From positions 1-10,843 of the forward strand of contig NZ_CAKRCF010000068.1 in assembly GCF_934307085.1 (NCBI RefSeq): a stretch of 10,843 nt of DNA, given 5' to 3'. Below the pieces are notes generated by a model that was given only the letters and a program-made list of their open reading frames with translations, searched no databases and was not told where the DNA came from. Shown here in pieces: positions 6,329-10,843 of this stretch. Source of the stretch: an uncultured Anaerobutyricum sp. (GTDB taxonomy: Bacteria; Bacillota; Clostridia; Lachnospirales; Lachnospiraceae). Each line of letters begins with the position of its first letter. Position 1 is the first letter of the stretch. A program made the position numbers and the translations under genes.

Positions 6329-7981
6329 TTAAATATTTATATAGTTTGTCTTTATTTTCCTGCAAATGCGCTCTGTGCTGCATCCATCGACAGTATTTAA
6401 GAAAGTCTCACGGAATTTTTTCAAATCTGCTTGTTCACTTTCTGACACAGCACTTTCTAACATATCTGCTGCTTTCTCACATAAAGCTTCAAAATCTGCG
6501 ACAACCGGACCAGGTGTGAACTGGGCATAGTCAAAATAAAAGTCTCTGCTATCCATGTATTCCTGTTCATCAAATGCATAAAAAAGCATTGGCAGCTCAA
6601 GGATTGCCGCTTCAAATACACTGGAGCTATAGTCTGTGATAAGCAGATTACTGATTAACATAAGGTCATTAATATGCTCTTCTCCACTTAAGTCAAATAC
6701 CCGCTCCTGCCACTGGGCATCCACCGGAAACTTCTGCTTTACAAATGGATGATTCTTCAGGATAAGTACCGTATCTTCCGGCTGTCTTTCCATAAAGCGG
6801 TTCACATCAAATGCTTCTAATGGATAGTAGGCATCTTTATTCCCATCTCCCCGGAATGTCGGTGCAAACAGAATGACTCTGTTCTCCTTAAATGCAGGAT
6901 ACTTCTCATAAAGCTCTTCCCGCTTTTTCTCTTCGTATTCCCAGTCAAAGAGAACGTCCGTCCGAGGCACACCTAATGCCTGTACCTTGCTCGAAGAGAT
7001 TCCAAATGCTTCTGCATAGATGTCTCTTACGGTATCGCTGCTTACCGGCACAAGGTCATAATTCCTGTGGTTCATAGAAGTCTGTGGTGCGCCGCCCTGC
7101 TTACCCATCCTGGTAAGTCCAAATGTCTTAAATGCACCACATGCATGCCACAGCTGCACAATCTTTGTCTCGCTTCGCTTCTGGATGCTGTGAAGCTGCG
7201 GATAAAAGTCCTCTAAGATAATAACCACAGAGGTCGCACATTTAAATGCACAGTCCCGCAGCTCCTTTTTCTTAAGACGGTCCACAGTCTTTGTATTAAT
7301 AAATGTTGTAATCTCTACTTCTGGTTCATTCTCCTCAAACCACTTCTTCACGAGCATAAGATTCCCGCCCTGTTCTGGCTCCCTTTCTGAAAGGAAGAGA
7401 ATCTGATTTGGCTTTACCTTATTCTTGGCCGCGTATTTACGGTATCTGTTTGCAAAATAGTCCGTATTCTGCTGTCTGGCACTGTAATTATAGCCGCTGA
7501 TTCTGTATACAGTATCATTTGCCCGTTTTGATGCCTTTAACAGATTTTTATCTTCTTTAAAATAGTCTCGAAGCAGTAAAAATGGCAATCCCAGGGAACA
7601 AAGACCAAACTTCAGAAGATTCCGCTTACGCACGATCTCTGCTCTGGCAAATAGTTCCTTTTGTACTGGAAATGGCTGCTCGTCAAGGCAGATTTCCTCT
7701 GCGCCGCACCATAAGGCAAAGATAACATTTACCTTATGGCGTGGTGGGCTGTAGAAGACATATGGAAGCAGAATCTCCGCATCTGCACGAATCTGCTCTC
7801 CTACTTCTCCCTCTTCTATCACTATTTCCATTGGAAAACGACGTTCTACCTGTCTTTGTGTAAAGATTGCCTGGACACGGATCCTCTTATCCTTCATCTC
7901 TTCCGGCATCTTGGCACGAAAACCAAGCTTCATCGTCTTCTGTGTTATGTTCACTGTAATTCTGTAATTAATCTTTCTCAT
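6329..7981 (-). CDS. CDP-glycerol glycerophosphotransferase (TagB/TagF-like)
   Basis: The C-terminal two thirds is a Glyphos_transf domain (PF04464), a GT-B enzyme at the inner membrane face that transfers glycerol phosphate from CDP-glycerol to a lipid-linked acceptor. Signatures are QLWHACGAFKTFG (277-289), VSSD, LGVPRTDVLF, FAPTFRGDG (372-380), LKNHPF (408-413) and LLITDYSSSVFEAA (446-459). His279 and His411 match the two conserved histidines of TagF. The first 120 residues resemble a beta-rich accessory domain, and residues 120-140 include a hydrophobic stretch (KFGLCSLGLPFLLL) likely to aid membrane contact. At 550 residues it lies between TagB and TagF sizes, so primase or polymerase activity cannot be decided. 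It starts 12 bases after the peptidase gene, with AAAGG close to its ATG, and is co-transcribed. Confidence 0.93.
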   Translation of the reverse strand: MRKINYRITVNITQKTMKLGFRAKMPEEMKDKRIRVQAIFTQRQVERRFPMEIVIEEGEVGEQIRADAEILLPYVFYSPPRHKVNVIFALWCGAEEICLDEQPFPVQKELFARAEIVRKRNLLKFGLCSLGLPFLLLRDYFKEDKNLLKASKRANDTVYRISGYNYSARQQNTDYFANRYRKYAAKNKVKPNQILFLSEREPEQGGNLMLVKKWFEENEPEVEITTFINTKTVDRLKKKELRDCAFKCATSVVIILEDFYPQLHSIQKRSETKIVQLWHACGAFKTFGLTRMGKQGGAPQTSMNHRNYDLVPVSSDTVRDIYAEAFGISSSKVQALGVPRTDVLFDWEYEEKKREELYEKYPAFKENRVILFAPTFRGDGNKDAYYPLEAFDVNRFMERQPEDTVLILKNHPFVKQKFPVDAQWQERVFDLSGEEHINDLMLISNLLITDYSSSVFEAAILELPMLFYAFDEQEYMDSRDFYFDYAQFTPGPVVADFEALCEKAADMLESAVSESEQADLKKFRETFLNTVDGCSTERICRKIKTNYINI

Positions 7982-9734: not shown

Positions 9735-10445
9735 ATGGATAAAAAGTTTAATTTTCAGGAATTACAGGCGATTGTCGCTACACTCCGCGGAGAGAATGGC
9801 TGTCCGTGGGATAAGGCACAGACACATGAATCGCTTAAATTGTATACACTTGAGGAAGCCTACGAAGTGAATCAGGCAGTATCCGACTTAACAAAGACTG
9901 GTGACTGCTCTAATTTAAAGGAAGAACTCGGAGATCTTCTTTTTCAGGTTCTTCTTCAGTCACAGGTTGCCGAAGATAACGGCGAATTCGCCATAGAAGA
10001 TGTCATTGACGGTATCGCTCGCAAGATGATCCACCGCCACCCTCATGTATTTGCCGGCCGCCACTATGACAGTGTAGAACAACAGCAGGCTGACTGGGAG
10101 AAGTTAAAAGCACAGGAAGAAGGGCATCAGCAGTCCTCCGTTAAGGAAGATATCGCTCTCGTTCCAGAAAGCTTTCCTGCCCTTATCCGCGGCCAGAAGA
10201 TTGCGAAAAAGGCTGCTGCCGCTGGAATGTTCTCTACAGAAGATGAAGATGTTTTCAAAGACCTTCTCACCTCTGTCGTGAATTTACAGCTTGGCACGGC
10301 TGGAGAAGATCCGGAGAAGAAGTTCAGCAGCGATGAGGAATTGTCTGAAAAACTGGGAGAAACACTGTTTGCACTATGCCGATTCTGTGCGAAGTATAAA
10401 GTTTCCGGGGAGATGGCTTTGTTAAAAAAGTTAGAGGAATTCTGA
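9735..10445 (+). CDS. mazG: Nucleoside triphosphate pyrophosphohydrolase MazG
   Basis: MazG hydrolyses NTPs and dNTPs to monophosphates and pyrophosphate, as housecleaning or stress control. The first MazG domain is complete: ENGCPWDKAQTHESL, YTLEEAYEV with the metal-binding EE, and EELGDLLFQVLL, followed by IARKMIHRHPHVF. The second domain is decayed: ELSEKLGETLFALCRFCAKYKVSGEMALLKK retains the fold pattern but lacks the full acidic motif, which is common in clostridial MazG. At 236 residues it lacks about 25-30 residues compared with E. coli MazG (263), because the frame ends right after LLKKLEEF, where relatives continue with an RFxxVE-type helix. The frame past the TGA is open for 49 codons into a palindromic element, so a 3' truncation is possible. 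In many Clostridia mazG is followed by an HU gene; none is visible here. Confidence 0.93.
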   Translation: MDKKFNFQELQAIVATLRGENGCPWDKAQTHESLKLYTLEEAYEVNQAVSDLTKTGDCSNLKEELGDLLFQVLLQSQVAEDNGEFAIEDVIDGIARKMIHRHPHVFAGRHYDSVEQQQADWEKLKAQEEGHQQSSVKEDIALVPESFPALIRGQKIAKKAAAAGMFSTEDEDVFKDLLTSVVNLQLGTAGEDPEKKFSSDEELSEKLGETLFALCRFCAKYKVSGEMALLKKLEEF

Positions 10446-10514
10446 TTTGTCGAGTTGGTAACAGACGCCGCTGTAGAGAAGGTTGTGCTCGGATTACCAA
10501 AAGTAATATTGAAC

Positions 10515-10666
10515 AGAGAGGCTAAAACATCTCCTATTTTGAGCTGTTGTGCTAAACGTTCCATTTTGCCCAGTAAAGCAGAAACTTCGCAGTAACGAAT
10601 GCGAAGTTTCTATGGTCAAAATTCCACAGCACAAAGGCTCAAAATAGGAGATGTTTTAGTCTCTCT
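10515..10666. repeat. Near-perfect long palindrome (152 nt), MITE-like element
   Basis: Arms 10515-10553 and 10628-10666 are 39-nt inverted copies matching at 36 positions, with an uninterrupted core of 23 (10522-10544). Inside, AGAAACTTCGC (10580-10590) and GCGAAGTTTCT (10601-10611) form a perfect 11-bp stem over a 10-nt loop, and TTTTG-CC (10564-10570) pairs with GG-CAAAA (10614-10621). The whole unit therefore folds as one long hairpin. It carries no transposase. It begins 69 bases after mazG and is bounded on its right by the stop of a minus-strand remnant. It could end transcription from both sides, since the right arm is followed by a T-rich stretch on the plus strand. Confidence 0.85.
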
Positions 10667-10669
10667 TTC

Positions 10670-10816
10670 TTATAGGTTTTGAGCAATCCGGTCAAAATTT
10701 TCTAATGCGGCTGTCTGATCTATTACTAACAAATTAAGGAAAATACCTGGGATTTTAGGCAGAAGTCTTTGACAATATACTTGAAGGATTCGGGGTTCTG
10801 GAGGATTACAATGTTA
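10670..10816 (-). pseudogene. Coding-like minus-strand remnant ending beside the palindrome
   Basis: A 47-codon frame runs between TAA at 10814-10816 and TAA at 10670-10672. Its translation includes NPPEPRILQVYCQRLLPKIP and ends LENFDRIAQNL, with protein-like composition, but it lacks a start and a ribosome site. It stops three bases before the right arm of the palindrome. I do not recognise the family. It may be the 3' tail of a decayed gene or part of the repeat. A plus frame (AEVFDNILEGFGVLEDYN...) overlaps part of it, so the coding strand is uncertain. Confidence 0.35.
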
Positions 10817-10843
10817 TAGAAAAATATAACAGATTTATAATAC

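Follow-up and report, generated by a model that had tools for sequence, protein, structure and literature searches.

A conserved folded tip on a variable but paired stem: a probable dispersed hairpin element in Anaerobutyricum and related genomes

A near-perfect palindrome downstream of mazG in an uncultured Anaerobutyricum genome is probably one copy of a dispersed, non-autonomous hairpin element whose tip is under selection and whose stem is free. The constant part of the element is a folded tip of ~90 nt, and the stem beneath it is largely free in sequence yet paired within each copy.

The palindrome at the mazG site and its copies

We analyzed a stretch of 10,843 nt (the window), for which a preliminary description had reported a 152-nt near-perfect palindrome just past mazG. 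The palindrome is genuine, and its folding far exceeds what chance would give. On the plus strand, it folds at -84.9 kcal/mol against -34.0 ± 3.8 kcal/mol for shuffled sequences (z = -13.3), and on the minus strand z is -12.9, with 0 of 200 shuffles as good on either strand. Inverted repeat searches bore out the reported 39-nt arms (10515-10553 and 10628-10666), which are complementary at 36 of 39 positions (92%), and their perfect 23-nt core. The separate perfect stem at the center is present as well, but it has 12 bp (10580-10591 with 10600-10611) rather than the 11 first given. Weaker pairing extends the structure outward to a quasi-palindrome of 290 bp (~10445-10734), the left edge of which is the final base of the mazG stop codon (Table 1). 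The MazG of the window is 96% identical in amino acids to that of Anaerobutyricum hallii DSM 3353 (G001), and the next best match reached 61% at most (tblastn).

The small frame said to begin with MRSFYGQNSTAQ in the right arm was found at 10599-10682 (27 aa). Both arms do encode the same AQ-x-LKIGDVL peptide, but as a coding hint this failed: the peptide is shared because the arms are reverse complements, and it is therefore no evidence of coding.

Table 1 Features of the palindrome and its neighbor in the window.
Feature	Position	Strand	Basis
Whole quasi-palindrome (outer part, arms, and tip)	10445..10734	+	Arm extension, 91 + 89 nt, 74% arm-to-arm identity
Match of covariance model R2 (tip and adjoining stem)	10530..10651	+	cmsearch, 120.8 bits (the window is itself among the sequences used to build R2)
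Left arm, perfect 23-nt block (variable stem)	10522..10544	+	Inverted repeat searches; pairs with the right block
Right arm, perfect 23-nt block (variable stem)	10637..10659	+	Inverted repeat searches; pairs with the left block
Conserved tip with internal loops (TTGYGCTAAMCRYTCC ... TCCRYAGCRCAAAG)	10547..10636	+	Present in copies from several genomes
Inner hairpin, 12-bp stem, 8-nt loop	10580..10611	+	Inverted repeat search and fold
mazG (neighbor; the quasi-palindrome begins at its stop codon)	9735..10445	+	tblastn

BLAST of window positions 10440-10740 against G001 gave 49 matches at E <= 10. At E <= 1e-3, G001 had 25 matches and G004, a single-contig relative of 3.5 Mb, had 28; the remaining 22 genomes of the genus gave no match. 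We built covariance models (R1, R2, and R3) of the center of the palindrome from aligned copies. At E <= 0.1, R2 matched 56 times in G004 and 28 times in G001 (50 and 21 times with E below 1e-13). R3 gave 51 matches in G004 (one locus on both strands) and 21 in G001, and scoring 149 candidates in each of the remaining 22 genomes yielded no match. Covariance model searches of more distant genomes recovered 28 copies in G256, eight in G120, and seven in G215. The palindrome thus belongs to a dispersed multi-copy repeat, as had been suspected; that proposal had been made to depend on further copies in the genome or its relatives, and relatives carry them.

The wider searches covered the family and order, which we take to be Lachnospiraceae and Lachnospirales, and the class. 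R1 matched in 4 of 299 family genomes (E <= 0.01), and R3 (E <= 1e-5) in 12 of 392 order genomes and 3 of 391 class genomes, G001 included, the last three all being among the carriers found earlier; these counts are lower bounds because nine candidates were scored per genome. Taken together, the repeat was matched in at least 15 genomes (G001, G004, G036, G120, G215, G222, G256, G339, G543, G704, G720, G721, G722, G724, and G737), with one match each in G036, G720, G724, and G722, the last of which is weak (42.7 bits). An exact pattern search of 397 family genomes returned eight: G001, G004, and G256, plus five more in which the matching loci (L145-L149) lacked the hairpin and were rejected as chance matches.

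Carriage by phages or plasmids was rejected, as no palindrome match was found in phages, plasmids, or viral contigs. A 301-nt window query was without match in phages and plasmids, and two exact 20-nt tip words were without match in viral contigs; diverged tips could escape both searches. An 18-nt arm word occurs in two viral contigs, and the palindrome itself is absent from both. Presence varies between species: a second G004 copy near locus L228 has no counterpart at the matching place in G001. Such patchy presence could also stem from loss.

Several matches in G001 lie at the ends of contigs (C42, C52, C113, C142, and C173), and the draft assembly may therefore break at these hairpins. On the single contig of G004 (C1), just 5 of 50 copies fall within 0.9-2.2 Mb, which is 37% of the contig (p = 2e-5).

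A conserved tip on a free but paired stem

Read in the orientation of the window, the tip runs TTGYGCTAAMCRYTCC-nnnnn-GCC, then the inner hairpin, then GTC-nnnnn-TCCRYAGCRCAAAG. This ~90-nt unit retains its internal loops across genera: the loops by the outer and middle stems and a one-sided bulge recur in G256, G120, G215, G543, G737, G704, and others. Over 93 distinct copies, 95.7% of pair cells are standard, compared with 69.4% after shuffling and at most 42.6% in slid structures, and all 33 modeled pairs have changes on both sides (807 double-changed cells; 0 of 500 shuffles); the 93 copies come from an alignment of 99 that was fitted to the structure. With a MAFFT alignment of 26 copies, both-side changes were found at 32 of 42 pairs.

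Departures from this plan also occur. In G543 and G737, the inner hairpin is absent from four matches 84-89 nt long (inspected at L283), most of the tip is missing from the G001 copy L108, and some copies carry inserts. At L090 (1440-2050) and L106 (1390-1760), inserts interrupt the inner hairpin; the one at L090 holds a second element with ends like AGAGCGTGTTTGAAAAAT.

The long stem is mostly unrelated in sequence between copies, yet paired inside each copy. We compared tips, left arms, and the two arms of the same copy by median pairwise identity, keeping 86 of 99 copies (identical tips and short flanks were dropped) and taking as baseline arms from different copies compared as partners. 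In G256 (15 of 28 copies), the identities were 0.78 for tips, 0.56 for left arms, and 0.88 for a copy's own arms, with a baseline of 0.53. The corresponding values were 0.84, 0.56, 0.86, and 0.53 in G120, 0.64, 0.53, 0.84, and 0.53 in G215, and 0.79, 0.69, 0.91, and 0.69 in Anaerobutyricum. The value of 0.69 for both left arms and baseline in Anaerobutyricum arises because many copies share one shell. These copies inherit their arms from that shell, and new arms are therefore not a feature of every copy.

In the copies measured, the 90-nt tip stands on perfect stem blocks of 23-34 bp. For a 16-nt arm block in 37 copies of the main Anaerobutyricum family, 25 copies pair at 16 of 16 positions, seven at 15, and one at 14; the remaining four are unpaired, one at a contig end and three with different sequence on one or both sides. 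Variants of this block occur as pairs (GG/CC, TG/CA, TT/AA, and AG/CT). An orthologous pair of copies in G543 and G737 has perfectly paired arms (34/34 and 33/33). Seven substitutions and one indel separate the two stems, with every change mirrored in the opposite arm.

The mazG site itself was compared with that of G004, where mazG has 82% identity. The tips are identical at 72 of 90 positions, while only 30 of 50 positions agree between the left arms and 32 of 50 between the right arms; a copy's own arms agree at 40 of 50 positions in the window and 37 of 50 in G004. The distance from stop codon to tip is 101 bp in the window and 98 bp in G004. A. hallii DSM 3353 has a different hairpin at this site; after its mazG (L003, about 6340-6400), we observed another long hairpin with a short loop. 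At a further locus (L100 in G001, L228 in G004), the tips are nearly identical and the stems differ in length and sequence, and a stretch resembling the G001 arm sits beside the G004 copy.

Genomic setting, outer shells, and candidate enzymes

We profiled the flanking genes of 77 copies (47 of 50 from G004 and 30 of 43 from G256, G120, and G215) with a crude ORF caller and counted 32 convergent, 39 tandem, and 6 divergent settings. Against an even 25%, the divergent class is under-represented (p = 1e-4) and the convergent class over-represented (p = 0.001). The left gene is directed at the element in 37 of 47 G004 copies, 19 of which have the stop codon 81-98 bp before the start of the model; in the window, the mazG stop codon is 85 bp ahead of it. 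Locally, the element would probably place a long hairpin at, or close to, the 3' ends of transcripts. ORFs around the sampled copies formed 27 clusters common to two to four genomes, and a common neighbor or cargo gene was rejected since no cluster occurs in more than four.

Twelve chosen G004 copies, preceded on the left by unrelated sequence, share a sharp start at TACTAATTTGC and have GCAAATTAGT on the right, followed by further repeats. Their ends are TACTAATTTG/CAAATTAGT, with TA flanks read by eye and no clean target-site duplication. Inspection of copies from other genomes (30, then more) revealed no such shell ends. G004 also contains other hairpins built on the same plan, for which we coined the class names B (mostly 26-bp arms and a 65-nt tip), C (25-34 bp arms and a tip of about 52 nt), and D, the repeat described here being class A. 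Different classes occur within similar shells, and one site is occupied by class A in G001 and by class B in G004, with the same left shell adjoining. Class B-like hairpins were observed at L235 (608-724) and L096 (about 1290-1420), with class A in the related genome and the left shell shared. The G004 loci L231, L243, L249, L250, L256, L258, L259, L262, and others are intergenic mosaics in which two to four hairpins of classes A, B, and C follow one another. The window holds a second hairpin at 1669-1768, with 15-bp arms and a 70-nt tip containing GAATGAGCATTCAA, which is possibly related to class B.

Two protein families were searched for as candidate mobilizing enzymes. Of 13 carriers, 10 matched PF01797 (Y1_Tnp), as did 14 of 22 non-carriers. 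The rich carriers G256 (28 copies), G120 (8), and G222 (at least 9) gave no PF01797 match, and the assemblies of G120 and G222 are in many contigs, so that a Y1 gene could be missing from them. Matches to PF00078 (reverse transcriptase) came from 6 of the 9 carriers and 2 of the 4 non-carriers searched. The need for a resident reverse transcriptase was rejected, as three of the nine carriers (G120, G704, and G721) had no match to this family.

Competing explanations and significance

We interpret the palindrome as a dispersed hairpin element in which the folded tip would be recognized by some factor, so that its loops and mismatches escape smoothing. Stem symmetry would be upheld by template switching between the arms, by selection for a long stem, or by both, and copies would spread in trans via a putative enzyme. 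The mirrored indel is explained more easily by template switching than by independent compensation. Template switching alone should smooth the tip too, and the tip is therefore probably selected. A bolder form of this proposal, possible but offered only tentatively, is a new mobile hairpin. Here the tip would be the element proper, and an undescribed enzyme or factor would recognize it as a single-stranded structure; the stem would be regenerated from local sequence, giving private, near-perfectly paired arms; tip classes A, B, C, and D would share this plan and be interchangeable at one site.

The strong covariation and conserved loops would also suit a structured RNA (a 3'-UTR element or small RNA) selected as RNA, with dispersal secondary, which we consider unlikely. 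Alifold energies are better on the minus than on the plus strand in both alignments (A1, -32.1 vs -25.4; A2, -24.5 vs -21.9), and in A1, G-U cells outnumber A-C cells 70 to 13 in the minus-strand structure, compared with 31 to 35 in the plus-strand structure, each structure having been selected on its own strand. The minus-strand tip loops, GGA/GGAA and GAAGSC..SCTGAA, resemble tandem G-A motifs. However, wobble cells over the 93 copies are few and favor no common strand (G-T 45 and A-C 53 of 3069). The G-T/A-C counts are 22/46 in Anaerobutyricum, a lean that would favor the minus strand as RNA, and 14/2 in G256, which leans the opposite way, so that a minus-strand bias holds in the former and reverses in the latter. 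Rfam 15 also speaks against an RNA, with no family above cut-off in the 16 sources examined and no hit at gathering level in the whole window. At relaxed E-values, all matches stayed below threshold, among them sRNA41 (16.1 bits against a cut-off of 45) and models of long-hairpin microRNAs. Beside two G256 copies lies a sub-threshold match to Clostridiales-1 RNA (L142, 756-887, the same as L135, 348-479; 34.2 bits, cut-off 48), which is separate from the repeat and was rejected as its identity. A consensus search of 10300-10843 found no promoter-like site.

The sharp shell of the 12 G004 copies, and the occurrence of different hairpin classes inside similar shells, recall a MITE of a DDE transposase with TA target duplication, in which the tip would be carried filler. 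We regard this as distinctly improbable, since filler would not maintain covarying loops across genera and the tip persists where the shell ends were not seen. The MITE label of the preliminary description fits at most the outer Anaerobutyricum shell and not the copies inspected from other genomes. A merely neutral, functionless palindrome kept symmetrical by replication template switching is very unlikely. The mirrored substitutions and indel of G543 and G737 and the lack of a common strand bias would be expected of it, and homogenization of inverted-repeat arms by this process is reported (PMC8604942), but the same process should erase the asymmetric loops and bulge, which recur across genera. 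That the structure is simply the terminator of mazG is close to inconceivable, although it is intergenic, starts at the mazG stop codon, and is followed by T-rich stretches. Copies adjoin many unrelated genes in 15 genomes, and A. hallii DSM 3353 has a different hairpin at the same site, so a lone mazG terminator was rejected, in agreement with the earlier view that the palindrome is more than a simple terminator. A scan of 10300-10843 gave 0 terminator-like sites, although it covers loops of 3-8 nt only and leaves the whole palindrome unjudged.

To our knowledge, bacterial palindromic repeats are conserved at their ends or over their full length, and neither the B. cereus repeats nor REP/REPIN sequences have a fixed tip on a free stem. 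Among open PMC articles, judged by title or the start of the abstract, none described this repeat. The nearest known system by behavior is bcr1 and the other B. cereus repeats (BCRs), which are likewise dispersed. BCRs are 100-400 bp long, with an average of 39 copies per genome for bcr1, and have mobile features; they are described as confined to the B. cereus group and linked to TTTAT repeats (PMC6542083). The repeat described here differs in being conserved only in its tip, in its free stem sequence, and in its carriers, which are Anaerobutyricum relatives. REP/REPIN sequences resemble it as dispersed intergenic palindromes, sometimes in alternating orientation. However, REPs are 20-40 bp (PMC3733652), compared with ~290 bp and a conserved tip here, and the usual partner transposase (Y1_Tnp) had no match in three rich carriers; the REP/RAYT identity, and with it the suggested REP type, was rejected. 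TA-duplicating MITEs are alike in the TA-flanked short ends around Anaerobutyricum copies, but these ends were not seen in the examined copies of other genomes, and the conserved part is central and not terminal. Quasi-palindromes homogenized by template switching (PMC8604942) share the mirrored changes in both arms; here, an asymmetric tip resists homogenization and the whole unit is multi-copy.

What sets the repeat apart is a tip conserved across genera on tens of bp of stem that are free but in register, including a mirrored indel. The repeat separates selection (the tip) from arm homogenization (the stem), making it a natural system for studying how long palindromes are maintained in bacteria, and it points to a putative factor reading the folded tip. 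Small hypothetical proteins that recur in such genomes, and breaks between their contigs, may also be explained by the repeat.
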